In this document: positions 34,057-59,571 of the stretch, in pieces | Numbering within the stretch: position 1 is the first letter of the stretch | How the letters are laid out: each line of letters begins with the position of its first letter | Assembly (NCBI RefSeq): GCF_026151205.1 | Contig: NC_087078.1 | Coordinates: 8,882,675 to 8,946,674 of the forward strand | From: Bolinopsis microptera | Taxonomy: Eukaryota; Ctenophora; Tentaculata; Lobata; Bolinopsidae | Reading direction: 5' to 3' | Length of the DNA: 64,000 nt | The notes under the pieces: model-generated | What the model was told of the DNA's origin: nothing | Databases searched by the model: none | What the model saw: only the letters and a program-made list of their open reading frames with translations | Program-made: the position numbers and the translations under genes

Positions 34057-37000
34057 ATGCAAGGAAGTATGTCACTGTTATCAGACTTATCAATGGAAGC
34101 GTCAGTAGACCCGGTGATACTGACTGCATCATCAGCGTCATTAACCAGTCACACCAATGTAAGTACTATAGTAGTTATATAAATACATAGTATTATACTA
34201 TAATATACTGTAGTTATTTTTGATCACTTAGCCTATCCTGGTTGACAAATATATTTTATTGAACTCTTGAGTCTCAATAATAAAATAATAGGGTGTTTAT
34301 TCTGGTGGTGAGGCATATTTTATTAACCAAAAATATACCTGACCTCGGCCTTTCAAAAAGAATCCAAATCTATAACCTTACTGTATGAATGAACTATTAA
34401 TGTATACATATTACATAGTCTGAGTTCTGATATTGAATTTTTCATGCTGATAATTAATATTGCTACCTTATCAGGACATTGATGATAGTTACTATGGAGA
34501 TCTCACTCTTGACCCTCCAGCCACTGCTTCTCTAGAACAGGTATCAGCTTCTTCACTTCTCTACTATTGTCGTATTATTATTTGTTGTAATATAATGGAC
34601 TCAGCTCCATAATAGATCTGGATAAGGGTTAAATGTTTTGACACGTGACAGTGATGTGTATACTTGTAGATGCTGGATAACTCTATAATCTATATCCCCA
34701 GGTGAGAACGGACCTGTACAAAGCTAATGCAGGGTGTCAGCTCCGGGGGCTCTGGGAGTATTCTAGCTGGATATCTGAGCAACTAGTCCACCTTCCCAAA
34801 ACTAACAAGGCACAAATACCTGATAACACGTGGAACTCAGATTACGATCTTATCATGTTTGCTTTGCAACTCATGCACACCCAGGTAGGAAACTAGTTAC
34901 TAAGTAACGTGGTTACCTGGCCTAGTAACCTAGTAACCTGGTAACATAGTTGCCTAGTAACCTAGTGCACCCCCAAGATTAAACTTTAGATATTTACGTA
35001 TCATTTGATGTGATTTTATTTGTCATGGAACATGAACTTCAGAATGTAACCAATAACTAGAAATAATATAACTGTTCACAAATTGCAGGAGTATGCAATA
35101 ATCTAACTGCTCGCAAATTGCAGGTGTATGCAATAATCTAACTGCTCACAAATTGCAGGAGTATGCAATAATCTAATTGCTCGCAAATTGCAGGAGTATG
35201 CAATAATCTAACTGCTCACAAATTGCAGGAGTATGCAATAATTTAACTGCTCGTAAATTGCAGGAGTATGCAATAATGTAACTGTTCACAAATTGCAGGA
35301 GTATGCAATAATCTAACTGCTCGCAAATTGCAGGAGTATGCAATAATTTAACTGTTCACAAATTGCAGGAGTATGCAATAATCTAACTGCTCGCAAATTG
35401 CAGGAGTATGCAATAATGTAACTGTTCACAAATTGCAGGAGTGTGCAATAATGGGGTGGTACCTACCACGTCCGTCTATGTCCGCTTGTCTCATAGAATC
35501 CAAAAAGGACAGGACACTGGACAGGACAGGACATAGGTGGACACAGGTGGAAATTGGCGGACAAAAGTGGACATTAGCGGACAAAAATGGACAACAAAAT
35601 TAGTATAGCTATTTTTTAAAAATTTTGTTAAATTTTAGAATTTTGTTAAATTTTGTTAAATTTTGTTAAATTTTGATAAATTTTGTTAAATATTGTAAAA
35701 TTTTGCTAAAATCTGCTAATGAGGCAGGGTGATACAAAAAGTTTTATGTGGTTCACCCTATAGATCCTGTTTTAAATGTATTTTGAGGTGCGAAGTGAGA
35801 TGTCAAGATACAAGATCTAGAAATACATGTGCTACATCGGTATCACGTGATCTACAAACACATGGAGCGGTTCTGCGCTTGACAGGGCTGTTCAGCTGTT
35901 GGCAAGCAGCCACTGTCTGGACTCTGGAACAGTGATTATCACCGTCTGAGTCACTGTCTAGAGTCCAGTATGGAGCCACGTGACCTTGATATCCCGTATC
36001 AGTCGGTTGAGCCAGAGAGGCGTGACGAATGAACAATCACAATGCTGGTAGAAGAGGTATCAAGTTCAGGATCAAGTCAGGGGTGTAGGAAGCGGGCATT
36101 GCCTCCCCCCCCCCCCCCCACCATTAAATCTGGACAAGGGGCAAAAAAGGGCCAACTTTTTATTTAGGTTTCTAAAAATTTAGGGCAAAAAAACTCGGAC
36201 CGAAGATTTTGTAAAGTGGTTTTCAGAAAAACTTTGCAAATTTTTCAAAGTTCCTCTGAAAACCACCTTTCTCCACATTTCATGCTACCCTGTTCATTAT
36301 TAGCCGAAAATATTGTGTCAAAATCATGTGCGAAAAATCCTCATAATGTTTGTCCGTTAATGTCCACCAATGTCCGTCAATGTCCGCTAATGTCCCAAAA
36401 ACATGTTCGCTTGTCTCATAGAATCCAAAAAAGACAGGACTTAGGCGGACATGTCCCCCCCCCCCCCCCCCCCCCATAATCTAACTGCTCACAAATTGCA
36501 GGAGTATGCAATAATTTAACTGCTCACAAATTGCAGGAGTATGCAAGAGCAGTAGCTACACTGAAAGACACTGAAACACAGAATGGTCGCTTCCTTTTTT
36601 ACTACTGCAAATACCTGAGCGGCGAAAAGTCTAGGATTGACAAGGTATAGTACTGTAGTATATACAAGGTATATAAGGTGTATATAGTATATACTATATA
36701 TATAATGTACAATGTAATGATGTTTCTTTTGGAGAAATCCAGTTTCAAGAGTGCTCTACCCGGGAGGGGAGCATTGTACAATGAAAACAACGATTCTACA
36801 AACTCAAAGTTTCATGCAAATGCAATCATTTCTGACACTGATGATTGCATTTGCATGAAACTTTGAGTTTGTAGAATCGTTGTTTTCATTGTAATGTACA
36901 ATGTATATACACAGGTTAAGAAAACTGTTCAACGTTTCAATGTAATTACATTATTTCCGATTCATTTTCTCACATTATTTCTTTGGTCGCATGTATCCGG

Positions 37001-40000: not shown

Positions 40001-43000
40001 GTCATATATTTCTTGGTTGAAACATTTACAACTTAAACATTTGCGTAATTTTGTTGGTGAATGAATAAATAATAGAGACCAATCAGTATTTTAATCAAGC
40101 TGTCTTTTCAATATGGTTCGTGTTCGTTAATTATAGTATCTTTGTTTCACACAATAGAGCATAAGTTTTGTGGTTTATCCACTGGGCTTAGAGTTTGTGT
40201 TTAAGCTACCAAATTTTATTATTATTTTTATTATTGCAATTTTCCAAGATAATGTAGGAATTTAATAATTCCAACATAAGCTGAATATGGATCAGGTATT
40301 TGGGCAACATTATGCATCTGTAAATATTTTACCACTATATAGCTGTGAGCACATAAGATACAATTATATGTTCCTCAAATTAAACATTATGTTTTATTTG
40401 GCTGCTTTAATATTGTTGAAAGGAAACGGCAATAATCATGGAAAATTGAAGTAGTCATAACATTGGTTGAAATAATCATTATTTTTAAATATACGAAGGT
40501 AATTATCCCATGCTTGAGTACTTAGTTGTTAAATAGCGGAGTAAATTTGCATACCATTTGACATAAATCATTCTGCGGAAAAGCATAAAAGTATAAAAGA
40601 AATTCCAAATAAATATTTCAAAATCGATACGTTATTTGATGTTAACACCTTCCCAAGGCCGCCACAAAAGCGTGTCGCCATTTCAAATGCTGGACTCGTT
40701 AACATTCCACTGGTATCTCGATAAGGGACAAACGTATCGTATATTTAAAATTTAATTCTGTGCTGATTTAAAACGAATAATATTTCGGGTAGCATTGCTC
40801 ACAATTTTGCGGAATAACAGCGGACATTGATTTACACAAATATCCTCGTAATCAGAAGGTTTCATAGATGTTCTGGTGAACAGATCTCTAGTTATACCAC
40901 CTTCACTTTTACCTGCAACAAGAAGGTACTCCAAGTCGGTGTTCTTAACTCCCAGATGTTTGACAGTCAGCTCCTCCAGGAACTCAGCACCCGGAACAGG
41001 TGTCACAGAGCAGATATAGGTGATGGTAGAGATCATATCTCCCGGATTAACCTTGTTGATGTTCTCCTGGCAGGCGTAGTTTTCGTACAAGACTTCCCCT
41101 AAATCCAGTTCAGAGTTGCTGACCATGGCAGCTATAACAGCCGGTCCTGGCACCAGGATCTCCGTGGTGGAATACCGTGTGACATTGTGGTGATGAGGGT
41201 TCGTCACCTTGAACAGGTTGCAGATCGAGCTCGTTTCAGTTCTTCCAAATGTTTTAACATCCGTGTGGAGCACAACTTCACCTGGATTAAGGACTGGAGA
41301 TGTTGAACTTAAAGGTAGATTCCCTGGACTTGAAAAATGACCAAGGATCATTTCTCGCCATGACGTTGCCGGTTTTACGTTCTCGTCGCCTAGTGTAGAT
41401 ATTCCGGTTTCATTAACAATAGCTAGCGGAGGGAACATAGACTTCTTATCCACACTAAAAATCCTAACATTATCCTGATTAACCAGCTCGTGAGTGGAGT
41501 CCACAATAGTGAACCTCGCCTCACCTTCGTGTCCTGTAATCTGCCTGGCACCCTGAACCGTAACCACAGACCTCACAGTATCTCCCACCAGCAGGGGCCT
41601 GTGTTGTTCCACGTTGTAACATCCCAGGTGTACTCGTGCTGATTGAGTGAACTGGGAAACGCTCAGGGCTAGAGATAGCATGTTAGCTAGCAGGAAGGGT
41701 AGTGGGCAGGATGGGAGACCCAGAGAAGACGCAACAGGGGAACTGGTTAGTAGTCTGGAAGTGGTGAGGAAGGAAGATTGCCACAGAACGCTGTGAGACT
41801 CAGTTATAGTCAGTTCCAGATTGGTTCTGATAACTTCACCTATACGCACTGCGGTCTCGAGTCCCTTCTTCCGTAAGATTAGAATCGGAATATTTTTGGA
41901 GTGATCTTGTCGATCTTTCTCTCGGCATCGAGATTCATAGGCTAGAATATGATCAGATTTAGCTCGATGTGGAGGACCAGCAGCCAGTCTGCTCTTTTGT
42001 ACGTCCATCTGTAAACAGTGCATAGCCGACATCTCATCCCCACCCGTTTCTGCAATCTTAGTTGCTGTTCTGAGTTGGCAAATGGATGGTCTGAACATGT
42101 TGTTGGCTTGCTGGACTTGAGAGAGTGTGAGGACACCTGCCCCATTGAACCCTAACTCCTTCATCGTAGTAAAGTGTTTCTCTGCTCGGACATAATCGTC
42201 AATGTGCAGACAGGTCCCTGCCACCGCTGTGAGGTTCGCTGATCTGGATGCTAGTACCACTTGAGTCAGGAGTGAGTGACCAGTAGCAGAATTTTCCTCG
42301 CACTGAACCTCCGTCGTGAAATCTGCTGAACCTGATGCTAAGGCTCGGTTCCTGGCTGACGCATGCGCTATATCTCTTACCTCAGCCAAGCCGGTGAGAG
42401 ACTCTACTATTGGCACAAGCTTGACAGACATATGTGTTAATCCGTTCAAAGCCTCCTGATTAGAAATCAGACATTCGACCATTTTGAGGAAGTCGACGTT
42501 ACATTTCGGAAGCATAAAAGAAACTCCAGCGAATGTAAGCATCTCAATATCACTTCTCATATGTGAGTGGCGCTTCGGCTCGTTTATTCTGACTACCACA
42601 TCCCGTCCTTGAAACAAGCCCTCGTTTAGTACAGTCTTATACAAGTGTCTCACTTCATTCTTCTTAGCCATAGGAACTGAATCCTCCATGTCCAGAACTA
42701 TAACATCCGCCCTCGAGACGCTTGCTTTCTTTAGCCCTGACAGAGATTTAGGGGCGAACAACCAGGACCGGTGTACGGATGTAGAGAAGAGTGCTGAGTT
42801 AGTTGGTATTATCACGTGTTCTGACATACGCTGGGATCTGGTTCTTGTGGAGAGTAACAGCTGGAGAAGAACTGCTTTCCTCGCACTCCATATCCGCCCC
42901 AGCATCATTATATTTTAATTTTGATTGGGCTGAAACTTGAAGAGGGTTAAACGTATAAACACGGGCATATTGATTTTATAGTAATATATAATATATATTA

Positions 43001-46000
43001 TATTATAATATACAGGGTGGCCCAAAAGTAACTGCCCACACGCAACCCTTTAATAACTCACGTAATTCTTCTTAGAATTGCACAGAAATTTCAGAGATTA
43101 TAGATATGAGTCAAACTAGTAGATTTCCTAAGAGTTTCGTCAAACTTAATTAATTACAGTGGGTGTGGCACGCCTTTCCCTCTTTTTCGCTATTGTCACC
43201 ATAACGTGAGAATGCTTTCAGCTAGGAACTTCAAAGTTTCTACTAGACACATTTGGTTTGATAATTGAAGTGCTTTCCCAAAATTTCAAGTTGGTTGTTC
43301 ATAATTTAACCGAGTTATGACACTTTTAAAATATTGCAGATACGTGATCTCGGCACTTAATCAGTGATTTCGTCACCCAATCAGTAATCTCATCGGGAGC
43401 TATTCGCTAGCGAGCAACAATGAGACGCATTAAGCGGTAACGAGCATGTTGGTGGATGACGATCTGAACACTTTGAGTGAATATTGATAGTGACGTTCCT
43501 TAAAACCGAAGAAATTTGCGTTATAGCGCTTCGGTTGCTGTCCTATAAGCAGTCTTCAACCAATCAGGGCATTGATTGAGTGAAGATATCACTGATGAAG
43601 TGCTGGATCACGTATTTGCAAGATCTTAAAAGGGTCATAACTCGTTTAAATTGTGAACAACCAACTTGAAATTTTTGGAAAGCACTTCAATTATCAAACC
43701 AAATGTGTCTAGAAACTTTGAAGTTCCTAGCTGAATCAACACAAAATAATGATAATAATACAGTAGACTGGTAGAGGCAGGCGTAAGCCACGTAGCTGGC
43801 ATGAACTATTACTAATAATAATAATAATAACAATATTATATATTTATTTGTATAATTTGTGATTGTTTCTCCCGGTTTTCTTCCCTTGCGTAGCAAGCCC
43901 TGTCTCTTGTAAAAACAACCTCGAAAGATTTGTAGATACACATAGTCTCTACACCTTTACCCTCTGGTCCCTAGGGTCAGCTGATCCCGGGCCAGAGGAA
44001 AACTACCGACTGCCAAGGTTTGACGCCTAGGCAGTCGAGACCTCTTATTGAGACCCTTTATAATAACAAAGTATTTATATCCCGCTCATATTAGCAACTA
44101 GTAACCAAGAATGGTACTAGCTACTAATGTCAGAGCGGCTATAAAAACTATAATGGTACATGTTTTGATAGTCTGATTATTTACTTTGGATAATGGGCAA
44201 CCGGTCCCCAGACTGGGTAGTTTGGACTTTTGAAATGCAAATATAAATCGAATCAGTTTACCTAGTTACTGTTCAGGTTATAAACTATTATATGGACAGC
44301 GCAACCTCGTTAAGGGGTCATTCGCATATTACGTAAGCAACAAAGTAATCCATCGTCAGCGTTATAATGGATGATAAACTAACATGGGGTAAGCATATAG
44401 CAGTTGTTAGATCAAAAATGATGCGGTATGTAGGAATTATGTATAAAATAAAACGTCACCTATCGATTCAAATAAGGCTACAGATATATCAAAGTTTTGT
44501 TCAATCGCATTTAAACTTCTGTTCAATTGTATGGGGGTTTGCAGCAAAAAATCACATTGAATCACTCTTCTCACGACAAAAACAGGGTATCAGGGCAGTA
44601 ATGCCAGGTCACATTAATTACTTTTACAAAGACGGTCGACTGCCAGAACACACAAAACAATTTTTCAATAACAATGGTATACTCACGGTGCACAGTGTTA
44701 TTGTAAAAAACACACTAATTCTCATGCACCGAATCAAACATTTCCGTAGCTCAGTCCCTCAACAAATCTGTATGACTATCCCAGAAAATGCACCCACTGC
44801 AAACTCAGATCACGTGACTGCAGCTTCCTGGTTAGCCGAGTACAACACCACACATTTCAGATCTTCGATGTTCTTCAAAGGACCTCTACTCTCAATTTAT
44901 GCTGTAAATGCAAATGTAAGCACCCTACCCACACTTTTTTCCATAAACCTTTTTAAGTCGGCTACAAAACGCATGCTCTTGAACCTGCAGAGTGAAAATG
45001 ACGATGACACGTGGCCCAGTTTCTTATTACATAATATTCCAGGTCTACAAGAAGGTCACAACGTGTCTGAAATTTACTGGACACAACGGTCATATTAGTT
45101 TAGCGAATTAGTTAATTAGTTAATTAGTTAATTAGTTAATTAGTTAATTAGTTAATTAGTTAATTAGTTAATTAGTTAATTAGTTAATTAGTTAATTAGT
45201 TAATTAGTTAATTAGTAAATCAGTTATTAGTCATATGGTTATTATTAAGTACTATATATTATATGATATTACAAAAATAAACTATGAATATATATTCGCA
45301 CACAAAAAAACCAGAACAAACTGATCACAGACTAGCGGCAATGGATTAGAGCAACCCAAACAGACACCAACGCGAGGAAGTTCAAACGAGTTCAGGCATT
45401 GGCATTGAGAATGATGTCTGGTGCCATGCCTAGTACTCCCTTCATCGCACTGAACCACCTCACTAACACTCCAGATATCATACTTTTCCTGAGAGGTGAA
45501 GCAGCAAAGGGCACAGCCAGGCTTCAAGCTTATGGAAGCCTAACCCTCGAAACTATCGCCCCCAGAAAAGGTACCATCACAACTCACACCACTATCAACA
45601 AACAATTCATGGTAGATCTCAACATACCACCCAAAGCAGAGAGAGACCTATCTATACCAACCATGATGCTTGAACGACGCTTCACGGTCACCACTCCTGG
45701 AGCTGACAACATTGGATATAGAGGCTCACTCCAAAACACCATCGACAACATCCCCAGTGAAACCATCACCTGCTACACAGACGGGTCACGCACAGACTCA
45801 GGTAGCGGGGCTGGTTATATTATCACCACAGACAACAACAACACTACACTAGATGAAAGATCATTCAAGCTTCCCGATTATTGCACTGTTTATCAAACAG
45901 AACTCACTGCCATCATCGAGGCTTGTAAATATCTATCAACTTATACAAACACACACATCATCATATGGTCAGACAGTCTCTCCTCTATTCAAGCCATATC

Positions 46001-49000: not shown

Positions 49001-52000
49001 AGAAGACTTGCCTTCAAGGTTTTGTCCGGAGAAGGCTTCGTTCACACTGGAACATGTCAAATGGTAAACGGAGTTATCTGCTAGGATTAATAAGTCAGTT
49101 CTACAGTTGAAGAGATTTTTTTCCAACTTTAAATGAAGAAATCGGCTCGGAACTTCATTCCTAGATAGACGGTGTACCATGGAACCAGTTAAAGCATCGG
49201 ATCAATTCAAAACATTCACATCCCACATTCTTAAATCTACATCCTTCACCAAAACCAGTTTGACCACTTAACTGTTCATTACTAATTGCAATATGAGAGG
49301 CGAAAGCTTGTAGCCAGGAACAGTACCTAGAGATTTCGACCGTAACCGGACCATTTTTACCATTACCGGACCATATCATCTTCATCTTGTGGCATGGTTC
49401 CCAAGCCTGATAGTAATACATATGCACTATGGCAGTATCTAGTATATCCCGATTCCTGAGCGGTGGAGATCTATCATTGTATTGGTGAAACTTCTCTCAA
49501 TAAAGCACTGTTCGTTACCTGTTTATTAAAGGTATTTCCAATCAATATCATGTGTGATAATTCCAGCCTATATCTATTTTTTAGGAACCATAAACAATAG
49601 TCAATATACATACAATACAAGGCCTTCTCCGGGTAGTCTTCTCCTGACAGTATTATTTATCTATGTAAACTCGCGCACGCACCTACCTTTTTGCAATATT
49701 TAGGTTCAAATTTGTGCGCATAACCATAGTTTTGAAAAGCGACATACCCACATTTTGAGAAGAAAACATCTACTGGAAACGTCTTCTGAACATGGTCGAT
49801 GGAAGACGCATAATTGTAGAATTCGTGTACTTGGCGCTGCAAACTGAATTTGCGCGCGTAACACGCGCGTTTATTAATAGTCTGTGATTTGCCGGCCAGT
49901 TCAAACGGTAAGTTTTGCTGAAAATCACGAACTTTAATTTATACTGTAGTGGTCAACTAACCCACACTCCGCTGTAGAAATGAACTCACGATTTAGGGAA
50001 TAAGATTTTTACATACGACTGTTTGTGACAGGTGGACGTCAAAAGCCGGCGTGAGGTAAACAACGAGGAGTTGGTGGACCTCAGAATAGAAATGGAGCAG
50101 CTCAGACAGGCTAACAAACTCGACACTTACGGGTTTGCAAACAACTCAATTTATTAGTTTACTCTAATGTGTTGTTTTTTAAATGGATATCAGCGTTTTC
50201 AACTTCTTAAATTTAATAGGTTTAAATACAGATTGTTCTAAATCATGAAATACTGAGAATAATTATCTTCAGATTGTGGTTACTTGGGGTGATTCTCAGT
50301 AAGTCTGCTTTGGTAGATCGAGCTATTCTTACCCTTGTGGAGTCCCTTAACGCTGATCCTAGTTTCTGGGGCTCCTGGAAAACATTGGCTAAGCTCATCA
50401 AAAACAAGAACCAACTTCAGGTTATTCTAGTTATTATCTTTCAGTAAAAAATACCTTTTAATTGATCAGTTTCATAGTCGAAGTGATCTGAATGATTATC
50501 ACGATTAGCGAGATTCGTACAGCGAAATAAATCGTACTCCGTCGAGAATTATTGCGATTATGATCGTTTGTAATATTCATATCGGCCCACCCAGACGTTA
50601 CCATCACTACCGCACCACTGGATGAAGAACTTCTTTTACGTCGAAGTTTGTCAGGAAATGTACTACGCAAACGATGCTCTTTCTTTTATACAGGTTTTTG
50701 TCGTCAAGTATTTGTTGTTATTCTTAGTGTGATCCAGTGCTGAATCACACTGAGATATGAATCACACTGAGATATGGATTACACTGAGATATGAATCACA
50801 CTGAGATATGAATCACAATGGGATATGAATCACACTGGGATGTGTGTCACACTGGGATGTGTGTCACACTGGGATGTGTGTCACACTGGGATGTGTGTCA
50901 CACTGGGATGTGTGTCACACTGGGATGTGCGTCACACTGGGATGTGCGTCACACTGGGATATGCGTCACACTGGGATATGTGTCACACTTGGATGTGTGT
51001 CACACTGGGATGTGTGTCACACTGGGATGTGTGTCACACTGGGATGTGTGTCACACTGGGATGTGTGTCACACTGGGATGTGTGTCACACTGGGATATGT
51101 GTCACACTTGGATGTGTGTCACACTGGGATGTGTGTCACACTGGGATGTGTGTCACACTGGGATGTGTGTCACACTGGGATGTGTGTCACACTGGGATGT
51201 GTGTCACACTGGGATGTGTGTCACACTGGGATGTGTGTCACACTGGGATGTGTGTCACACTGGGATGTGTGTCACACTGGGATGTGTGTCACACTGGGAT
51301 GTGTGCCACGCTCACCAGACAGCACTAGCCTCACCTTATAATCTCCATTTACTTCCAGGCACTAGAAGATATGGGTCTGACAAACAACCCTTACCTATTG
51401 GCTAAGAGGGCTGAAGTTCACTACGCTTTGAGAGAGTACGATATAGGTATGTACATTGTACAAATTCAACAATGTTTCTTGGATAAATATCGTGTTATAA
51501 TCAAGTTGAAAAGTTTTCCCAATCAATAGTTATTGGATTAAATGTAAAAATTGGTTAACTTGAATGATATTTTTCTTTTGTCTAAAAGCAAATGAAGGTT
51601 TAAAAATATCATGTTTTCAATCAAGCTGTTGAACTCTCATTGCGAAAAACAGATTCTAAAATGTTCAGTCTTAAATGCCAATCATGAAACATCATGAATT
51701 TCATCACAACATCACAGGCGGTCATGCTGATGATTAATCTTCGTCACATTTGTCACTATTTCCATGCTCGTACTTGAAGTGTTTTATGAAGCCCTCAGAT
51801 ATCTTGGATCCCACGAAATGCTCTGCAGATTGATTATTTTTAAATAGAACAAAGATGGTTACTAGTTAGTATATATAGTTACTTACTTATTTAGCATTCT
51901 ATACTAAACTTGGAAATAGTTGATCTACTATAAGTTTAGTGGTCTTGATTTCTATGAGATTTCTGCAGGATTGCAATAAGACGTCACGTGACATACGAGC

Positions 52001-55000
52001 TGCAACTTAACTTACCTGCCTCCCCCTCCCAAATAGTACAAACCTAGCTGATCCCAGGTGCTGGTTAGGGTGTTAAGAAGTTGGCTGGTGAGAATCTTGT
52101 TGTAGAACTCCTTGCTGTACAAGACGTCCCAAACTGCCGCCCTCCCCTCAGCCTCACACCCCACATCTACCAAAGTAACGTTCCCATACCTCTCCTCTTG
52201 TAACAGGTCCTCCCATCTGTGGAGTGTAACGGTTAGAACTGTGATAGACTGTGATAATATATATATATATAATATAGACTGCACCCCCAGCTAGCCGCTC
52301 ACCTGATATATCTCTTTAGACCGAACTGATCCTCATAATCAGAACACAGACCGTTCCCCTTCATCATCTTAACTTCAGACTCCTCCAAGGCCTTGGTGGA
52401 CACGTTTAATTTGAACATCTCTCCACCAAAGTTGTATTCAGGTGAAGTAACCTGACCGTTTGTCCTGACTATATTTCCCAGTGCGATGTTTCCGCTGAGA
52501 CCAAGCTTCCTACCAGTGGGGGTATTGTCTGTTCCGATAAGTTTACCCTCGTAGAACACTTGAAACTGACTGGAAGATGAGCTCCAGGTCACACAGTGGT
52601 GTCTCCACTCGTTATCAGGACTGATAACACTGCTCATGAAGTCTGAGCGCTGGTTGAAAATCCAATAGACCCCATCATCTCTTATCATGATTTCATAATT
52701 TATGCTGGGTGAGGCGTATGTAAACCAGTACGGGATTGGATCTGAGTGGGGGATCCTCTTGATCCAGCTACAAACTGAGAATTCCTCCTGTAGTGGATGC
52801 ATGTCTAGTTTAATCAGGATATGATCTCCAACTTGAGTACCAAACTTTAGTCCGAAATGCTTCCTCTCGTCTGTAAACACCAACCCTGTCAGAAGTCCAA
52901 GAAGAGCGAGCTGCGAAAAAAGCAACAACATTTCTGGAAATATTGTCAGAGAATCATTACAATGAATATTTATTCGGGATTCGGAGGTTTAAATATAATG
53001 AGTTACCCCACAAAGCCACATCTTGGTTATCGTAATTATACTGATTTAATTATACCCCAATATTCACTAATCGCTGGTTCAGTGGTTTGAAGGTAATTTT
53101 CAATGATTCAATTAATTACTTAATAATACAACCCTTTAGGCTCATGGTAGTGATGGTAGTCGGGTGCCGCGCACGAGCGATAACACTTATCGCTCTTATT
53201 GTGCATCAGTTATTATTTGCACCAGACAACTTTTGGTTTTGTGATTGGAGAGGGTGTGCCGATATTTTAACACAACACGTTTATTGTGTGAAAATACTTT
53301 TTCATGAAATTTACTGAAAATGCGGGAGTTTTCTGCCCGTCCAAGGTTCAAACTCAGAATCAGTAAACAACTCTAACTTTTGCATATCGTTCTAAGATCG
53401 AGCTTTCTCTACCCCCATTTCAATTTTATTTAGTAATTTTCATTGACTTAATTTCAGCTAAAGACACGTGTAAAGAACTGCTAGAGAAGGATCCAAACAG
53501 GCTTGATATAGTGGACATGTACTCCAACATACTCTACGTGAAGGAAGACAAGGCAGCACTCAACTATCTAGCTCACCATACAGTTGAGGTAAGTGGTAAA
53601 GAGATATACGATTATCTATAATAAATAAATTCACCCTAAAATGACCGGATTTAACGATAATAATAATATGATATAATGATTATAATTATAACGATATATA
53701 ATATGACAATATAACCCTAACCTGACCCTAAAATAATCCTAAACTGACCAGGTTGACAAGTACCGCCCAGAGACGTGCTGTGTAGTTGGTAACTTCTACT
53801 CTATCTACGGGAACCACGACAAAGCCATCACCTACTTCCAGGTACTGATCAATAATATGCCCAATAGTACAGAAATTAATCACGGGATTATTGTTTCTTA
53901 TCCAAACAATATCGTACCCACCCTTATAATTAATTATGCTAATATCTTTTAATTAATTATGCTAATATCTTTTAATTAATTACGCTAATATCTTAGCCGG
54001 TCCTACACAAAGTGCTTACAAGAGAGGTAGAAGTTGTGGCGATATAATTTGGTCTCAACGTATGCTAACCTCAGTGGTACTTAGAAAGCATTGGAGCTAC
54101 CACAGAATGAGTATAGACATGTCAAGTGCCTTTGACACCATCAGCAGAGAAACAGTACTCAATGTTCTTGAAGATGCTGGCTGTACTAGTGATGAAATTA
54201 GGATGGTACGGCTCCTACTATCAAACACAGTGTTGAAAGTAAAAGTCAATAATACTGTATCAATTGAGTTCCAAAGCACAACTGGAGCATTTCAAGGAGA
54301 TGCACTATCAGGTAATCTATTTACTGTTGTTGAAGCCGCTGCACTTATTCACCTCAGATCTGTACTCTCCCAAGTATCATCAACACCTTACCCAGTGAAT
54401 CATCCAATCCCTTATCCTCCTATCTCAGAAGAATTCATGCCACTCGAAACAGGATACTCTGATGATATTGACTTTAATAACACTGAACTTGCTCCACTCA
54501 AATAAATGCTTCCTATCGCTAAAGATATATTCCAGCAGTGGGACCTTCATATCAATTCTTCCAAGACTGAATTTGTCCATTTTTATTTAGCAGATCCTAA
54601 ACCCACTGTTAAACGCAAGGTGATTGTTGCAAAAGTGTATAGAGGTGATGAAGAGTGGCGCTCTAACAAAACTTTAGGATCGTTGATGTGCACTGTTACG
54701 GATATCAAGAATCGAATATTCCTTGGTAATGTTGCCTTTAGTAAATTTCAGAAAGTTTGGATGAAGAGCAAGATTTCAGTCCAAAGGAAGATCAAAATCT
54801 ACGAGGCACAAGTAGTCTCTATTCTACTCTACAACTGCAACTCCTGGGCTGCACCACTAGCTTCGTTGAATGAACTTGATATTGCTCATCGCAAACACCT
54901 CCGAAGAATCCTCAACATCAGATGGCCTACTGGGGTTATTTCTAATGAGGCACTCTATGCTCGTTGTTATGTCACTCCCTTGTCTGTGAGAGTCTCTAAG

Positions 55001-58000
55001 TTTCGATGGAGAATGTTAGGACATATCTTAAGAGGACAGGAAGACTCACCAGCATACACCTCTATGTTATTTGCTATAAATTCTGATATTTTTATGGAAG
55101 GGAGACGGTAGACCATGTTTAAACTTATTAGATGTTATTAGAAAAGACTTGACTAGTAGAAATCTTGAAATTAGACTTAAGTATTTGACTGATTTCGAAG
55201 ACCTTAGATTTTTAGCTTTAGATAGGGAGGAGTGGAAGCAGTTAGAAGATGGTTGATGTTTTTTGTTTTCTTTTTTATGCGTTTTGATATCTATAAGGTG
55301 CCTAGGATGCTCTTTTAAAGAGATATTTCGTACTTTGAAAGATTTACTACTAATATCTTTTAATTAATTATGCTAATATCTTTTAATTGATTATGCTAAT
55401 ATCTTTTAATTAATTATGCTAATACCCGTTACAGAGAGCGTTACGACTAGACCCCGACTACTTGTCTGCCTGGACCCTAATGGGGCACGAGTACGTGGAA
55501 CTAAAGAACTACAACATGGCAATAGAGTGCTACAGGAACGCTATAGATGTTAGTAGGAGTTCATCTTACTGTTTTGTGTTATAATACTGTCATAACCCAC
55601 GTGATTCCCAAGGTAACAGTTCTAACTTGCAGGTTAACCCACGTGAATACCAAGGTAACAGTTCTAACTTGCAGGTTAACCCACGTGATTACCAAGGTAA
55701 CAGTTCAAAATTGCAGGTTAACCCACGTGATTACCAAGGTAACAGTTCTAACTTGCAGGTTAACCCACGTGATTACCAAGGTAACAGTTCTAACTTGCAG
55801 GTTAACCCACGTGATTACCGAGCCTGGTACGGAATTGGTCAGACATATGAGTTATTGAAAATGCACGCTTACTGTCTGTATTACTATATGGAGGCCCAGA
55901 GATTAAGACCCACTGATTCCAGGATGATAGTTGCTCTCGGTAGGTTGCTTTTCATTTCTTTAATTATAGATTATATGTTATATATATGTTAACAGATCAA
56001 CATCACATAAAAACTTTCAATACTTGGGGGCAAAATGTTGGAATAATGTTCCAACAGATCTACGAAATCTGTCCGATGTTAAAAGCTTTAGTGATTCGTA
56101 TAAGAAACAGCTACTCTCATCTATAACAACAGACCTAGGAACCGACCGGAAATCCGGCTGAATCCGGTTCCGGCCGGATATCCGGCTTCAAAATCCGGTT
56201 CCGGTTCCGGCTCCGGCTGGAAAAAAATTTGCCGGATTTTTGCCGGATTTCAGTTTTTTTTACCGAAAAAAATCAAAAAAATATTTTCGGCTAATAATGA
56301 ACAGGGTAGCCTGAATCGTGGAAAAAAAGTGGTTTTCAGAAAAACTTTTAAAAAATTTTGACTTAGAAGTTTTTCGAGACGTACCTCCTGTATCGAGAGC
56401 TCCCGCTTCCGAGCTCGTGTTGCAAAGGGGAGGCCTGCCTTCCAAGATCACATTACCAGGGGAAACCTCGAGTCCAGAATTGTGTATCGATGGGTAGGTG
56501 GGGACTTCGAAAACCGAAAAAATATTTTCGGCTAATAATGAACAGGGTAGCCTGAATCGTGGAAAAAAGTGGTTTTCAGAAAAACTTTGAAAAATTTTGA
56601 CTTAGAAGTTTTTCGGTCCGAGTCGTTCTCGAGACGTACTTCCTGTATCGAGAGCTCCCGCTTCCGAGCTCGTATTGCAAAGGGGAGGTCTGCCTTTCGA
56701 GATCGCATTACCAGGGGAAACCTCGAGTCCAGAAGTGTGTATCGAGGGGTAGGTGCGGACTTCGAAAAACCGAAAAAATATTTTCGGCTGATAATGAACA
56801 GCCTGAATCGTGGAAAAAAGTGGTTTTCAGAAAAACTTCGAATGTCGAAAAATTTTAACTTAAAAGTTTTCGGTCCGAGTCGTTCTCGAGACGTACAGGG
56901 AATCGCATTACCGGGGGAAACCTTGAGTCCAGAATACAGAATAGTGTATCGAGGGGTAGGTGCGGAATTAGAAAAAACCGGAAAATATTTTGGGCCACCT
57001 CCCTGGGCTAGCCCCCGGCTATAATCGCAAAATTGGCAGTATTTAATCTTCTGATTATGAAATACGAAATATGAAGGTCACGTGTTCAGGGTCTGGGTAG
57101 CTACTTAATTAGCTCATTACTGCAATCATGTGACTCAGCTCTAGACGCCAGACGGTGATTAGTACTGTACTAGACAGTGCCTGCTTACGAACAACCTTAT
57201 TAAGCACCTCTGGTTGTAAGTCACGTGACCCAATGATACTCAGACTTGCATGAAAAAAAGGGAATTCGCACAAACGCGCTCAATCAGGGGATCCAAATCC
57301 GGCTGAATCCGGTCCGGCAGCCAAAACCCCAATCCGGTCGGTTCCTAAACAGACCCTTATTATACCGTCGACAATTCATATGACAAATTTTACACTGCAA
57401 TCATAGTCGACGATAACTAAGTATCTTCTATTTCTTTTAAATCTGAGGCATATATAATTGAAGTGTCGAAAGGATATTCCCTTTTTTACCACCTTACCAT
57501 TCTGATTGATTCTGCACATGACTGACATGTTTTAACTGGAGAAGGGGTTCGCACAGTGGTAGTTTTATAAACCACTTTTAATTTATTGACCTATTATACC
57601 TAGTGGTAGTTTTACAGACCACATTTAATTTATTAACTTATTATACTTAGTATTTATTTTTGGTGACTGTATCACCCAGTACAGTTGTAACATTTGATAA
57701 TTGTACAGTTTATTGACGACACATTGACCGAATGTTATTTTATATTCTAATTTATATACTAGATATTTTATTTATTTTCCAACAGACGACAACTTCCTGT
57801 TTTTTTTCTTCTATATTAGTTACTCATATCTCTTGTACAGACTGTTCTACAAGGACATTGACAGATGATACTCATATTAGGCATTCATTATTGCATCTAA
57901 ATTATTTCACTTGCATTAGGTTTAGAAATTTATTCTCTGGTTAACAGATTTCAAATGTTTAATTAATTTGTAGTATGACAGTATATAAGAAGTTATTTAA

Positions 58001-59571
58001 TTTTGCTTGGGCTGTTGTGTTGACTGTTGGGGTTTAGTGGTGGTATGGAATTTGAATTTTATATAAATTTACACTATGAGGTTGGGGCATTTTGCATAGT
58101 AAATATGGTTACTACTCCTATATATCATATTATTTGATTGGTATTCGATTTCTGATTATTTCCCTAGGAATATGATTATTATATCTCAATTTGGCTTTAG
58201 GTAGGGTGCCCCGCTAAAAGAACTGGATTCTTCCAGGAAGCATCCCGTGCACAGAGCTTGGTCTACATATATATTAAATTATTAACCATTCATTCTGTAT
58301 GTGCACGAAAATTTATTTCAATCAAAAAAGATTTACCGCGGGGTTTGGGGAAAAGGGACTGTATTTGATATTAGCTATAATATTCTATCCCCCTCCTTAT
58401 TCCCTTGTTTATCTACTAAACCCCCGGTATTTAAACCCCCGGGATCTAAACCCCCGGTATCTAAACCCCCGGTATCCCAGGGGAGAGTTATGAGAAGCTA
58501 GAGCAGCCTGCTAAAGCTAAGAAATGTTACATGAGAGCTCTTAATGTTGGGGACCAGGAGGATATTGCTATGATACGACTAGCTAAAGTCTGTGAGAAAC
58601 TGCACGATGAGGAGGGTATGTGGTTAATTAGACAATTAGGCAATTAGTAGTAATTGATTAATTAGATTATTTAACACCGGTTAGTATTTTGGGCGAGGAG
58701 CTTGTTTAACACTACCATAGTTGGGCATACTAACACTACCATATATGGGCATACTTACACTACCATATATGGGCATACTTACACTATCATATATGGTCAG
58801 GTGCGGTGAGGTGGTACAGTAAGTATGTGGACATGGTAAACTCGGCTGAGTTGGATCCTGGAGATGATATCTGCTTTGCATACCGCTACCTGGCTCACTA
58901 TTACCTCAGAAATGATAGGTACGTTTATCATCACCAGCAGTCTGAAGTAAACGTCTTCTTCTACCTGTTCTAAACACATCAACATTAAACTTTAAGATTA
59001 AAGGTTTTATTATTCTAGCAAAAGTTCATCATCTGAATAATGCTGGTGAGAAACAAGCGCAAAAAGCCCTCAAATTCCACAAAGTTAAGATAATTCACAT
59101 GTTTATAATACTGTCAGGTTACCAGAGGCAGATGTTCACGCTCACAAGTGTTGTGAGTTCAAAGAAACTAAGAATGACGGTAAAGCGCTAGTGAGGCAGA
59201 TAGCAGCTCATCGTAACAGCGGTAGTGGGGTTTACAACCCACGATTCACTCCTAAACCTAACCTCAGGTAAGCGAAACTGAAAGTGAAACTGAAAGTGAA
59301 AGATGAGTTAATAATTTGAATATAGATTGAAATTGACTGTAACTGTGATGGTGACTGTTATTGATAGTGACGTTGTGAGCGATGTTGGTTACACTACCTA
59401 TAAATTATTAATTACCTGTCAGTACTGTATAGTAGAGATATCACATTTTAATCTTCTCCCTTCAGAGTGAAGTTAGCACTGTCAGGCTCAGCTAGTACAA
59501 CTCCGGGATCCCAGAAAAGAAGCAGAACCCCACCACCCCAAGATCACAGTGATAACGACATGTCCTTCTGA
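34057..59571 (+). CDS. CDC23: Anaphase-promoting complex subunit 8 (TPR protein CDC23)
   Basis: TPR scaffold subunit of the APC/C ubiquitin ligase. Sixteen coding exons: 34057-34158, 34475-34540, 34702-34884, 36537-36644, 50032-50132, 50273-50420, 50595-50693, 51359-51446, 53458-53588, 53752-53841, 55435-55548, 55801-55939, 58481-58615, 58801-58918, 59118-59267, 59466-59571. They sum to 1878 nt, 625 residues, all junctions in phase (human about 597). Diagnostic blocks: [26 protein letters not shown] region, [90 protein letters not shown]. The frame is open upstream of the chosen ATG to the acceptor at 34018, so a 5' coding or UTR exon may be missing. Intron 4 (13.4 kb) and intron 8 contain whole opposite-strand genes. 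Intron lengths are very uneven because of insertions. Confidence 0.95.
35040..35452. repeat. 35-bp minisatellite carrying copies of a CDC23 acceptor (part 1)
   Basis: Eleven or so copies of aattgcaggagtatgcaata then atctaactgctcaca. Each contains the acceptor ttgcag plus gagtatgcaa, the first ten bases of CDC23 exon 4. The array is split by a transposon at 35453-36475 and resumes at 36476. Use of an upstream copy would meet a stop (TAA) within the unit. Confidence 0.95.
35453..36475. mobile_element. Non-autonomous DNA element inserted in the acceptor array
   Basis: Begins ggggtggtacctaccacgtc and ends in a run of about 21 C. It is flanked by ataat on both sides (35448-35452 and 36476-36480). 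Removing it with one ataat restores a perfect 35-bp unit, so the boundaries are precise. Both ends hold tgtccgcttgtctcatagaa-like segments (35489 and 36403) and repeated gtccg motifs. Another poly-C run is at 36106-36119. A part near 36220-36310 matches the repeats at 56260-56600. No transposase is present. Confidence 0.85.
36476..36546. repeat. 35-bp acceptor minisatellite (part 2), ending at CDC23 exon 4
   Basis: Last full copy and the junction copy of the array at 35040-35452. The final ttgcag at 36531-36536 is the acceptor whose downstream sequence departs from the repeat and continues as exon 4 ([11 protein letters not shown]). Confidence 0.95.
36779..36891. other. Perfect 50-bp inverted repeat (113-nt hairpin)
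   Basis: Arms 36779-36828 and 36842-36891 are exact reverse complements over 50 bp, with a 13-nt loop (tttctgacactga). It lies 135 bp into CDC23 intron 4. Gtacaatg-type sequence flanks both sides. No coding or known element signal. Could be a recent template-switch palindrome, a tiny MITE or a small-RNA precursor. Confidence 0.9.
37642..38902 (-). mobile_element. pogo-like DNA transposon remnant with TA duplication
   Basis: Inverted ends ccttaattcccaaaaattt (from 37642) and aaatttttgggaactaagg (to 38902) are flanked by TA on each side, the target duplication of the Tc1/mariner/pogo group. Inside, a minus-strand fragment encodes part of a DDE transposase. Both ends contain repeated cccaaatttt motifs. 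The 1.26-kb length and 165-residue ORF show it is internally deleted. Confidence 0.8.
37971..38468 (-). pseudogene. pogo/Tigger-type DDE transposase fragment
   Basis: 165 residues of the DDE endonuclease domain. [20 protein letters not shown] and [20 protein letters not shown] match the family pattern in which the second catalytic Asp lies in a (L/I)xDVFxxQ context and is followed by VPxNxTxxLQPLDxxxN. [18 protein letters not shown] follows. The N-terminal DNA-binding region and first Asp are missing. Not a functional enzyme. Confidence 0.75.
39045..39460. mobile_element. Foldback element with cggggtttgt repeats and a poly-T tract
   Basis: Inverted arms share ggaggcatcatgtagcc (left near 39057-39074, right near 39423-39440 in reverse). 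Between them are two blocks of about eight tandem gtcggggttt units (39105-39190 and 39355-39410), a second copy of catgtagccggtgggcccga at 39313, and a T run at 39220-39243. Open frames here are repeat artefacts. Confidence 0.65.
39473..39895. repeat. Two tandem 188-bp units related to the element at 47.3-48.6 kb
   Basis: Two direct copies of a block running from gtgttccgggataggtggaa to ccgaaaatctttacccccgt. The same block occurs at 47370-47490 and, inverted, at 48185-48345. The preceding gagagcacgtttccttgatt also matches 47311-47330, so this is one end of a related element. Confidence 0.8.
39896..40751. other. AT-rich intronic stretch below the fusion gene
   Basis: No gene or clear repeat. 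It contains the 3' flank of the minus-strand fusion gene that stops at 40752. No AATAAA was found close to that stop. Confidence 0.5.
40752..42908 (-). CDS. Fused CitE/HpcH-type acyl-CoA lyase and MaoC-like (mesaconyl-CoA hydratase-like) enzyme
   Basis: Intronless 718-residue frame. Residues 1-28 ([20 protein letters not shown] then TRTRSQRM) are Arg-rich with no acid, a likely mitochondrial leader. Residues 47-280 are a CitE/HpcH aldolase domain: [28 protein letters not shown] (Arg107), [11 protein letters not shown] (Glu169) and [11 protein letters not shown] (Asp196), the substrate and metal residues of malyl-CoA, citramalyl-CoA and beta-methylmalyl-CoA lyases. Residues 340-660 look like a double hotdog: a first half ending [16 protein letters not shown] and a second half with [20 protein letters not shown]. 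The closest remembered pattern is bacterial mesaconyl-CoA hydratase rather than short MaoC. Together they could run beta-methylmalyl-CoA or citramalyl-CoA cleavage with the preceding hydration. Substrate is inferred, not shown. It lies antisense in CDC23 intron 4. No introns plus bacterial-type pairing suggest transfer or retroposition. Confidence 0.88.
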   Translation of the reverse strand: MMLGRIWSARKAVLLQLLLSTRTRSQRMSEHVIIPTNSALFSTSVHRSWLFAPKSLSGLKKASVSRADVIVLDMEDSVPMAKKNEVRHLYKTVLNEGLFQGRDVVVRINEPKRHSHMRSDIEMLTFAGVSFMLPKCNVDFLKMVECLISNQEALNGLTHMSVKLVPIVESLTGLAEVRDIAHASARNRALASGSADFTTEVQCEENSATGHSLLTQVVLASRSANLTAVAGTCLHIDDYVRAEKHFTTMKELGFNGAGVLTLSQVQQANNMFRPSICQLRTATKIAETGGDEMSAMHCLQMDVQKSRLAAGPPHRAKSDHILAYESRCREKDRQDHSKNIPILILRKKGLETAVRIGEVIRTNLELTITESHSVLWQSSFLTTSRLLTSSPVASSLGLPSCPLPFLLANMLSLALSVSQFTQSARVHLGCYNVEQHRPLLVGDTVRSVVTVQGARQITGHEGEARFTIVDSTHELVNQDNVRIFSVDKKSMFPPLAIVNETGISTLGDENVKPATSWREMILGHFSSPGNLPLSSTSPVLNPGEVVLHTDVKTFGRTETSSICNLFKVTNPHHHNVTRYSTTEILVPGPAVIAAMVSNSELDLGEVLYENYACQENINKVNPGDMISTITYICSVTPVPGAEFLEELTVKHLGVKNTDLEYLLVAGKSEGGITRDLFTRTSMKPSDYEDICVNQCPLLFRKIVSNATRNIIRFKSAQN
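42909..43011. promoter_or_regulatory. Presumed promoter region of the fusion gene
   Basis: 100 bp between the ATG and the start of the next transposon, ending in an AT dinucleotide run (taatatataatatatattat). No defined motif; called only by position. Confidence 0.3.
43012..43740. mobile_element. Foldback MITE with 130-bp inverted arms
   Basis: Left arm 43217-43350 and right arm 43606-43735 are inverted copies with about 90 percent agreement (ttcagctaggaacttcaaag at one end, its complement at the other). The left part begins at 43012 with acagggtggcccaaaagtaa, typical of Tc1/mariner-type ends. No right-hand match to that end is seen, so the right end is probably truncated. No coding capacity. 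Confidence 0.75.
43741..44350. other. Intronic stretch without gene
   Basis: Contains a short ataataataa run at 43810 and a GC-rich inverted patch near 43960-44040 (gaccctctggtccctaggg-like). No exon or assigned repeat. Confidence 0.4.
44351..45215 (+). mobile_element. LINE 3' fragment ending in (TTAGTTAA)n
   Basis: The open frame 44367-45098 encodes the post-RT region of a non-LTR element: [53 protein letters not shown]. The catalytic palm is missing, so it is strongly 5'-truncated. It ends directly in about 15 copies of an 8-bp repeat (gttaatta, 45095-45215), a usual 3' tail for several LINE clades. Confidence 0.8.
45342..46872 (+). mobile_element. I/Jockey-type LINE insertion with 13-bp TSD
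   Basis: Flanked by the exact duplication agactagcggcaa (45329-45341 and 46873-46885). The element starts mid-protein, so it is 5'-truncated, and ends in an A-rich tail at 46850-46872. It holds a single open frame with RNase H and a Cys-His motif. Boundaries are exact. Confidence 0.95.
45399..46640 (+). CDS. LINE C-terminal polyprotein: RNase H domain and CCHC-like motif
   Basis: 413 codons, open upstream to the insertion junction at 45342. RNase HI signature residues are all present: [13 protein letters not shown] (Asp128), [10 protein letters not shown] (Glu168), [13 protein letters not shown] (Asp192) and [18 protein letters not shown] terminal [18 protein letters not shown] motif (CX2CX8HX4C) follows. 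This order defines I/Jockey-group LINE ORF2 ends. The reverse transcriptase itself is lost. Intact frame implies a recent insertion. Not a host gene. Confidence 0.92.
   Translation: MALRMMSGAMPSTPFIALNHLTNTPDIILFLRGEAAKGTARLQAYGSLTLETIAPRKGTITTHTTINKQFMVDLNIPPKAERDLSIPTMMLERRFTVTTPGADNIGYRGSLQNTIDNIPSETITCYTDGSRTDSGSGAGYIITTDNNNTTLDERSFKLPDYCTVYQTELTAIIEACKYLSTYTNTHIIIWSDSLSSIQAISSSSTRSRTTRDCYDTLNTLGSTNTLEIRWIAAHIGLWGNEKADELAKNGTTSESTLNCPIPQSYIKRLINDKVTKLNQESWITDGPRHTKLTLGHKNINIIKNLNTTLSNNRQNYRTAVHLITGHCGLNKHLHTIRKSDTSACPKCGDEEETVSHFLGQCPAIAQIRGQYFRDYYLSVNDIFDNQHISTIVNFTNHTKRLVVPEELDQTGVT
46886..47316. other. Intronic stretch without gene
   Basis: The first part is the original 3' flank of the LINE target site. 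AT-rich. No exon or assigned repeat seen. Confidence 0.45.
47317..48647. mobile_element. 1.3-kb non-autonomous TIR element
   Basis: The left end acgtttccttgatttttgta matches the reverse complement of the right end (acgtttccctgaaatgtgta), and both continue gtggatttgtag. Subterminal blocks of the 188-bp family lie in opposite orientation inside each end (47370-47490; 48185-48345 plus a shorter copy to 48480). The central 47.7-48.2 kb holds two copies of aatcgaatcacctgaacagg. No transposase. No clear TSD found. Confidence 0.75.
48648..50031. other. Right end of CDC23 intron 4
   Basis: No exon supported. The segments gagaagacttgccttcaagg (48991-49012) and ggccttctccgggtagtctt (49621-49640) are partly inverted copies, so a degraded 0.65-kb inverted-repeat element may lie here. 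GC-rich gcgcgcg patches occur at 49850-49870. Confidence 0.4.
50735..51310. repeat. 17-bp tandem array in CDC23 intron 7
   Basis: About 33 copies of gtgtgtcacactgggat, with a diverged aatcacactgagatatg version at the left end. The unit has no stop in any plus-strand frame and its length is not a multiple of 3, so all three frames stay open for 165 to 195 codons encoding the same peptide cycle ([17 protein letters not shown]). These are not genes. Confidence 0.97.
51447..52011. other. Left part of CDC23 intron 8
   Basis: AT-rich. At 51750-51838 a minus-strand stretch after CAATCTGCAG reads [20 protein letters not shown] and then a stop 9 codons later. It could be an extra pentraxin-gene exon, but its phase does not fit the preceding donor. 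Confidence 0.4.
52012..52931 (-). CDS. Secreted pentraxin-domain protein
   Basis: Two exons, 52303-52931 and 52012-52216, joined in phase (ATCAG/GTGAGC, CCACAG/A), 277 residues. Residues 1-20 are a hydrophobic signal peptide ([20 protein letters not shown]). The pentraxin/LamG fold follows: [11 protein letters not shown] (Cys54) and the pentraxin signature HxCxTWxS as HHCVTWSS (111-118), the Cys pair that forms the conserved disulphide. [10 protein letters not shown] is the usual late strand. The second exon ([16 protein letters not shown]) is not a known domain. Pentraxins are secreted calcium-binding lectins of innate recognition. The ligand is unknown here. The stop lies beside a perfect donor consensus (GGCAG/GTAAGT), so a further exon and another C-terminus are possible. 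It sits antisense inside CDC23 intron 8. Confidence 0.85.
52932..53457. other. Upstream flank of the pentraxin gene in CDC23 intron 8
   Basis: No exon seen. It should hold the pentraxin promoter on the minus strand and the branch-point region for CDC23 exon 9 on the plus strand. Confidence 0.4.
53935..53994. repeat. 22-bp repeat (gctaatatcttttaattaat), left part
   Basis: About three copies of a 22-bp AT-rich unit in CDC23 intron 10. It is interrupted by the LINE at 53995-55349 and resumes at 55350. Confidence 0.9.
53995..55349 (+). mobile_element. 5'-truncated LINE inserted in a 22-bp repeat, 10-bp TSD
   Basis: The target duplication ctaatatctt is at 53985-53994 and 55350-55359. It encodes a reverse transcriptase in one frame with a single nonsense codon (TAA at 54503-54505) and a frameshift near 55108. 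Motifs: [23 protein letters not shown] and GYSDDIDF (catalytic YSDD in place of YADD), then the thumb and [13 protein letters not shown] at the C-terminus. It has no poly-A tail. Sense orientation relative to CDC23. Confidence 0.9.
55350..55425. repeat. 22-bp repeat, right part
   Basis: Three further copies of the unit at 53935-53994, running to about 10 bp before the acceptor of CDC23 exon 11 (CCCGTTACAG at 55434). Confidence 0.9.
55591..55819. repeat. 42-bp repeat with in-frame duplicate acceptors of CDC23 exon 12
   Basis: Five full junction copies at exact 42-bp spacing (AG at 55632, 55674, 55716, 55758, 55800), plus a partial first copy. Each unit carries ttgcag then gttaacccacgtgattacc, identical to the true exon start. 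The unit is 14 codons with no stop ([14 protein letters not shown]), and every copy keeps the CDC23 frame. The last acceptor gives the conserved protein; the earlier four would insert 14, 28, 42 or 56 residues. Confidence 0.97.
55985..58250 (+). mobile_element. LINE 3' remnant interrupted by a hAT element
   Basis: At 56020-56130 one plus-strand frame reads [20 protein letters not shown] then [12 protein letters not shown], a typical LINE ORF2 C-terminus. It is broken at 56135 by the hAT insertion and followed after 57347 by AT-rich 3' UTR-like sequence, with a 50-bp block in two copies (agtggtagttttataaacca at 57558 and its relative at 57602). The right boundary near 58250 is approximate. Confidence 0.6.
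56136..57347. mobile_element. Non-autonomous hAT transposon with 8-bp TSD
   Basis: Perfect terminal inverted repeat taggaaccgaccgga at both ends and the 8-bp duplication aacagacc on each side (56128-56135 and 57348-57355), which is the hAT hallmark. Subterminal ccggttccgg-type repeats lie at both ends. The interior has three tandem copies of a block of about 250 bp (starting accgaaaaaatattttcggc; 56263, 56512, 56768). No transposase. Confidence 0.92.
58425..58480. repeat. 15-bp repeat forming the acceptor region of CDC23 exon 13
   Basis: Four copies of taaacccccggtatc run into the acceptor (ggtatcccag at 58471-58480). The repeat itself supplies the C-rich tract of the 3' splice site. Confidence 0.85.
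58705..58800. repeat. 27-bp repeat at the acceptor of CDC23 exon 14
   Basis: Four copies of taacactaccatatatgggc then atacttac-like sequence. The last unit has changed to atatggtcag, which is the acceptor at 58791-58800. There is almost no pyrimidine tract. Confidence 0.85.

Follow-up and report, generated by a model that had tools for sequence, protein, structure and literature searches.

The window analysed here is the whole stretch of 64,000 nucleotides from contig NC_087078.1 of the ctenophore Bolinopsis microptera. Its minus strand contains an open reading frame (ORF), running from ATG to stop at 40752..42908, that encodes 718 amino acids in a single frame and joins a lyase of the CitE/HpcH type to a hotdog module resembling mesaconyl-coenzyme A (CoA) hydratase, hereafter Mch. 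This fusion architecture is real and unusual. The frame is bounded by stops at both ends, contains no internal stop or frameshift, and was recovered unchanged in the assembly (264.65 Mb in 232 contigs) at C7:8923429-8925582, on a contig of 20 Mb; the single 718-residue frame reported in a preliminary description of this DNA therefore stands.

The ORF is located between matches to CDC23. Using an approximate human CDC23 sequence as tblastn query, we found a CDC23-like exon on its left side (36531..36644, plus strand; residues 96-133 of human CDC23), which depends on a single modest match (E 0.001), and collinear plus-strand exons on its right side (50053..59217, the first at 50053-50133 and the last at 59125-59217). 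Because these collinear matches flank it, the ORF runs antisense within the ~13.4 kb that separate the recognised exons on either side, and its proposed nesting inside a CDC23 intron is supported by sequence matches on both sides. The lack of introns had also been presented as notable. The ORF is indeed a single frame, but this says little, because a SUGCT-like gene (468 amino acids) and another PF02515 gene (379 amino acids) of the same genome are single frames too, and the CLYBL match stays in a single frame as far as residue ~248. For this reason, we dropped the absence of introns as a sign of retroposition or of bacterial origin.

A partial second copy is present on contig C11. It covers residues 236-716 with 96% identity, has several hundred bases of 3' flank in common with the ORF and ends abruptly inside the lyase half; judged from its sequence, it is a DNA-level duplication. 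The compared codons of the two copies differ at 18 amino acids, and the truncated copy is probably drifting. The C11 copy carries Pro262 where the ORF has Leu262, so the loss of this proline from the ORF looks recent. It was also observed that the C11 copy breaks off where a palindrome-like stretch begins (L002, next to position 2942), which by eye may be a small mobile element.

An intronless frame belonging to families best known from bacteria might suggest bacterial contamination of the assembly, a concern raised in the preliminary description. Against this, CDC23 exons flank the ORF on a 20 Mb contig, the second partial copy lies with its duplicated flank on another contig, and the prokaryote collections searched yielded no close relative, the relatives listed there being at most 35% identical. 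We therefore reject contamination as a negligible possibility; on the sequence evidence, the fusion is a nuclear ctenophore gene.

The searches of genome contigs, viral contigs and phage records reach what patterns or BLAST could detect; within that reach, nine loci in genome contigs match at 24-32% identity, five phage records match, and viral contigs gave no match to the fusion protein. Matches were also obtained with 305 plasmid records, none of which covers 80% of the query at a single site. Among the Chloroflexota, 158 of 301 genomes match; the matches listed reach up to 35% and lie nearly all within the lyase half, and the two that pass residue 350 both do so through a stop (at 351 in G183 and at 453 in G239). 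In G239, the lyase and the hydratase are encoded by adjacent separate genes. Eight loci with long frames (473-716 amino acids; L022, L023, L027, L029-L033) have the lyase at the end of the frame and, by eye, no hydratase behind it. Thus, the prokaryote collections searched showed no fusion of this kind, in a search that could miss fusions whose C-terminal half is as divergent as the ctenophore one. Genes for the lyase and the hydratase frequently lie side by side in bacteria. As to gene order, 31 of the fetched loci, most of which extend just 1.5-4 kb past the match, contain a lyase gene, 23 a hydratase gene and eight both. The lyase gene comes first in seven of these eight (L014, L016, L018, L035, L062, L063, L068) and second in L017. 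The bacterial lyase-first order equals that of the fusion, which fits an operon origin.

The two halves of the fusion protein

The N-terminal half is clearly assigned, by sequence and structure model, to the Mg-dependent CoA-ester lyases of the CitE/RipC/malyl-CoA-lyase superfamily. It comprises a TIM barrel (residues 45-290, 42039..42776, minus strand), recognised by PF03328, by its residues, by its model and by Foldseek, followed by the lyase lid with a conserved Asp302 and a linker (residues 291-350, 41859..42038, minus strand), which were placed by residue alignment. PF03328 matches residues 49-257 (2.9e-21; 76.2 bits, cut-off 25). Scores for the CitE model TIGR01588 (94.5 bits, cut-off 443.4) and for the RipC/Ccl equivalog NF038242 (93.9 bits, cut-off 375) are far under their cut-offs, the haloarchaeal malyl-CoA lyase model gives 25.4 bits on this half, and a sequence search of the PDB ranks 3qll, the Yersinia pestis RipC, first. 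In lyases of the HpcH/HpaI-CitE type, the metal and substrate site includes an Arg, a Glu and an Asp, and the lid carries a further Asp. R107, E169 and D196 of the ORF are among ten residues (with R47, D73, E75, D76, N109, K135 and D238) that are invariant across 19 rows, consisting of the ORF and 18 comparison lyases, and D302 is aligned with the lid Asp in 17 of the 18 comparison rows, the remaining one being gapped. These data bear out the claim of a CitE/HpcH lyase with its key Arg, Glu and Asp, and the lyase half is predicted to be likely active.

An AlphaFold2 model of residues 1-345 has a mean predicted local distance difference test score (pLDDT) of 79, with values mostly >90 in the barrel and low in the lid region. 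Foldseek matched this model to malyl-CoA lyases, which ranked first, and to citramalyl-CoA lyase, human CLYBL and RipC, in a ranking that draws no line between malyl-CoA lyase, CLYBL and RipC/citramalyl-CoA lyase. The genome contains a separate CLYBL gene on contig C2 (L005), which matches human CLYBL with an E value of 9e-41 versus only 0.0025 for the fusion. In a quick tree of 24 rows the fusion lyase and the CLYBL of this genome stand apart, both on long branches; the end branch of the fusion lyase measures 4.06 changes per column and its placement is unsure. The lyase is thus distinct from animal CLYBL, as had been proposed.

The best reading of the C-terminal half, drawn from sequence comparison, is a MaoC-type hotdog module of the mesaconyl-CoA-hydratase type. 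A first hotdog of MaoC type (residues 351-500, 41409..41858, minus strand) was recognised by hhalign and by sub-cut-off matches to PF13452, and it is followed by a bridge and a possible second, very divergent hotdog (residues 501-718, 40755..41408, minus strand), outlined by a co-linear alignment and a weak hhalign match. PF13452 (FAS1_DH_region) scores 19.8 and 21.6 bits on the ORF, just under the cut-off of 22, and 22 bits, counted above the cut-off, on the C11 copy; the RipB/Ich model NF038241 scores 12.1 bits against a cut-off of 340. Searched alone, the C-terminal half has as its top PDB matches the mesaconyl-CoA hydratase 8hgn (1e-4) and 4e3e (3.3e-4), which is titled a MaoC domain protein and reaches 2.4e-184 against a profile built from ten Mch proteins. 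When the half was aligned with these ten proteins, hhalign gave a probability of 93.7 and an E value of 1.9e-7 over 306 columns, with nearly all of the signal coming from the first hotdog. Residues 351-500 score 57.3 with the first hotdog of Mch (best of 40 shuffles, 19.6) and 57.4 with eight single-domain RipB/MaoC proteins (best shuffle, 18.7), and thus resemble both equally. A hotdog fold, the lack of which had been considered beforehand, is therefore present in this half as the first hotdog, and the likeness to mesaconyl-CoA hydratase is supported.

We mapped the Mch site through an alignment with 13 Mch proteins, with the conserved motifs Q-N-x4-H and Y-G-G as anchors for Asn226, His231, Tyr248 and Gly249. 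According to the MeaC report, the site includes the catalytic residues Asn226 and His231 and the substrate residues Phe71, Ser79, Asn85 and Arg142 (PMC10164722). His231, a His in all 13 Mch rows, is kept as His573, and two further Mch site residues, Arg142 and Gly249, are kept as Arg482 (in the first hotdog) and Gly588. Phe71 corresponds to Leu413 and Lys113 to Arg455, replacements that also occur in one and two of the 13 Mch rows, respectively. The model of the C-terminal half has a pLDDT of 46 and, with Foldseek, the best structure matches 4e3e and 8hgn; because it was built with Mch rows only, this match is not independent evidence. A first full-length alignment, in which Mch rows were misplaced onto the lyase half, was kept out of structure prediction.

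The protein starts with a basic leader (residues 1-44, 42777..42908, minus strand), which its composition and a low-confidence helix mark as a possible mitochondrial targeting peptide. Residues 1-46 include six basic and one acidic residue, and the AlphaFold2 model places a helix, with low confidence, at residues 3-26. Of the mitochondrial leader that had been claimed, the basic composition is there and an amphipathic helix is not supported, since the hydrophobic moment of the leader is matched or exceeded by 1662 of 2000 of its own shuffles. From its sequence, the fusion protein is probably located in mitochondria.

Proposed role and alternatives

We tentatively propose that the fusion is a two-domain, probably mitochondrial acyl-CoA enzyme, whose likeliest role is in a breakdown pathway of the itaconate/mesaconate type. 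A SUGCT-like transferase would make the CoA ester, the C-terminal half would form citramalyl-CoA by hydrating itaconyl-CoA or mesaconyl-C4-CoA, and the lyase fused to it would cleave this product into acetyl-CoA and pyruvate, so that the intermediate might be kept on one protein. The genome contains a SUGCT-like CoA transferase gene (9br7 is its best match, 3e-109), alongside a second PF02515 gene that is AMACR-like by reading. PMC12558001 lists SUGCT and CLYBL among the itaconate enzymes of animals. Furthermore, itaconyl-CoA hydratase is described in PMC12290011 as acting both as an itaconyl-CoA isomerase and as a mesaconyl-C4-CoA hydratase, which would make an Mch-like module in an itaconate route chemically reasonable. 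We infer the substrate of the enzyme and any channelling, as well as the pathway it would serve, glyoxylate or itaconate, and on thin evidence we prefer citramalate-type chemistry over the glyoxylate route. A further reading, namely a bifunctional ctenophore enzyme that hydrates and cleaves five-carbon (C5) dicarboxyl-CoA on one polypeptide, in mitochondria and beside CLYBL, and that has a rebuilt hydratase site able to do without the usual Asn/Asp, is possible though somewhat doubtful.

Several observations weigh against the itaconate/mesaconate role. In the lyase half, the IHP motif, present in all 18 comparison lyases, is replaced by L260-T261-L262, with Gln264 of IHPxQ being kept. In the hydratase-like half, the catalytic Asn226 has become Val568, Ser79 has become Thr421 and Asn85 has become His427, positions at which every one of the 13 Mch rows has Asn, Ser and Asn, respectively, and Tyr248 has become Pro587. 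The double hotdog of the preliminary description holds for its first part, and the second part is barely detectable in the sequence: residues 516-718 score 18.2 with the second hotdog of Mch over 131 columns, a value reached by 2 of 40 shuffles, and 12.4 with the set of single-domain MaoC proteins, where 24 of 40 shuffles are as high, and in another hhalign test residues 521-718 score 15.5, where 60 shuffles average 14.5 and reach 26.3. The ratio of nonsynonymous to synonymous substitution rates (dN/dS) between the ORF and the C11 copy, 0.68, is not different from 1 (p 0.28), in a comparison that rests on ~30 changes, one of the two copies being truncated and perhaps drifting by itself. No match to PF03972, the ACOD1-type MmgE/PrpD family, was obtained in the genome, although a missing match does not prove absence. 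Finally, we withdrew gene order as a hint for an origin from a RipC-RipB pair: because L062, L063 and L068, which are Mch loci, are also lyase-first, gene order cannot distinguish a pair of the itaconate type from one of the Mch type.

Hydratase activity of the C-terminal half, and any specificity for mesaconyl-CoA given the changes at Ser79 and Asn85, are therefore doubtful, and a rather unlikely but plausible explanation is that an active lyase, its residues complete except for IHP, carries a hotdog module that binds CoA or drives oligomerisation without hydrating anything. The change to Val568 and the barely recognisable second hotdog would fit this explanation, as would the well-kept first hotdog, which by eye has no Asn/Asp-x4-His pair. 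On the other hand, the fusion retains His573, Gly588 and Arg482 from the Mch site, and Thr569 and Asn570, beside Val568, could take over the role of the Asn. The same losses of IHP and of the hydratase Asn, together with the apparently recent Pro262Leu change, the very long branch, the dN/dS value and the truncated duplicate on C11, could also point to a decaying gene or pseudo-enzyme whose frame is still open and whose constraint has been lost. We consider this quite improbable, given 718 codons without a stop or frameshift and the ten invariant lyase positions that are unchanged, and given that the dN/dS value is subject to the limits stated above.

Alternatively, the enzyme may be active on another substrate. 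Hydration of mesaconyl-C1-CoA to beta-methylmalyl-CoA, followed by cleavage to glyoxylate and propionyl-CoA, the route that the preliminary description put first, is suggested by the PDB proximity of the C-terminal half to the beta-methylmalyl-CoA dehydratase 8hgn and to 4e3e, and by the malyl-CoA lyases that rank first with the lyase model. In addition, mch and citE of Sphingobium are overlapping neighbours, and 3 of 16 Mch loci (L062, L063 and L068), which extend just ~1.5 kb past the match, have a lyase gene directly before mch. However, several Mch pocket residues are changed in the fusion, the haloarchaeal malyl-CoA lyase model scores 25 bits versus 94 for RipC and CitE, malyl-CoA lyase, CLYBL and RipC cannot be told apart by their Foldseek order, and a search of the genome for the malate synthase family PF01274 matched nothing, a missing match not being proof of absence. 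This glyoxylate-forming route thus appears unlikely. A role in the (R)-3-hydroxy-3-methylglutaryl-CoA (HMG-CoA)/leucine branch, as for Mycobacterium Rv2498c, is highly improbable. An enzyme of the same superfamily accepts both citramalyl-CoA and (R)-HMG-CoA, according to PMC6689899, but no sequence feature of the fusion points to HMG-CoA, and 6aq4, given there as a structure of Rv2498c, is a weak PDB match (E 0.002).

If a bifunctional C5 enzyme of this kind exists, animals would possess either a second, fused itaconate/mesaconate route or one that forms glyoxylate plus propionyl-CoA. Ctenophores are often placed as the sister group to all other animals. To our knowledge, the hydratase step of itaconate/mesaconate handling in animals is less settled than the other steps, and the fusion provides a concrete candidate for it, and for an extra C5 acyl-CoA pathway. 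Should the hydratase half be dead, the protein would still be a lyase that gained a hotdog module. In the open-licence literature searched, we recognised no report of such a fusion or of animal or ctenophore mesaconyl-CoA enzymes; within that literature, a bifunctional enzyme that hydrates and cleaves C5 substrates would be new for animals. The main text of a paper on horizontal transfer in Mnemiopsis contains no lyase, hydratase or CoA wording (PMC6005172), and a compendium of metazoan transfers contains no hydratase and the word lyase twice, the listed place being tryptophan indole-lyase (PMC13342648).

Other features of the window and the genome

Antisense within the span of CDC23, a frame of 229 amino acids at window positions 52302-52988 (minus strand) encodes a laminin-G/pentraxin domain with, by eye, a signal-like start. 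Upstream of the ORF, frames that by eye are retroelement-like, including an RNase H-like part, occupy 44349-46637 (plus strand), and part of this stretch, at ~44359-45341, is repeated in dozens of places. At 21989-25677, two oppositely oriented tandem arrays are present, in which similar frames recur every 331 bases, on the minus strand and then on the plus strand, and a short-period repeat at 50795-51402 is readable in three plus-strand frames. An exon of an iron-containing alcohol dehydrogenase (9942-10181, minus strand; PF25137, 1.8e-14) belongs to a gene that we take to be possibly ADHFE1.

Elsewhere in the genome, an aequorin query of approximate sequence matched 56 places, many of them in tandem arrays of full-length open frames. 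These places are spread over contigs C1 to C13, among which three measure 20-23 Mb, and arrays of single-frame photoprotein genes ~1 kb apart are present on C1, C2, C3, C5 and C13. On C1, the three copies that were read are identical but for one or two residues. One frame matches the ctenophore photoproteins berovin (9.9e-124) and mnemiopsin (4.5e-121), in keeping with the ctenophore origin of the assembly.

Comparison with known systems

Animal CLYBL is, like the N-terminal half of the fusion, a TIM-barrel CoA-ester lyase found in an animal, and its structure 5vxs matches the fusion lyase with a Foldseek template modelling (TM) score of up to 0.86 by target length and 0.71 by query length. 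Unlike the fusion, CLYBL is not known to have a hotdog domain. The CitE-like lyase Rv2498c of Mycobacterium belongs to the same superfamily and has the chemistry expected of the fusion lyase; it cleaves citramalyl-CoA and (R)-HMG-CoA, according to PMC6689899, and differs in lacking a hotdog half, and its sequence matches the fusion weakly.

The C-terminal half aligns co-linearly with Mch/MeaC (8hgn, 4e3e), of which it retains the equivalents of Arg142 and His231. It differs from these enzymes in having Val568 in place of Asn226, changed pocket residues and a very divergent second hotdog. In bacteria, Mch and the malyl-CoA/beta-methylmalyl-CoA lyase are encoded by separate genes, with the lyase gene preceding mch in L062, L063 and L068. 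The pair formed by RipC/Ccl, an (S)-citramalyl-CoA lyase, and RipB/Ich likewise combines a lyase of the same superfamily as the fusion with a MaoC partner, and in Paraburkholderia (L018), for example, the lyase gene precedes the hydratase gene, which is the order of the fusion. The fusion falls well short of the cut-offs for RipC and RipB, and RipB has one hotdog, whereas the C-terminal half of the ctenophore protein may have two in tandem. Moreover, RipC and RipB are encoded by separate genes, whereas in the ctenophore the two modules are joined in one frame.

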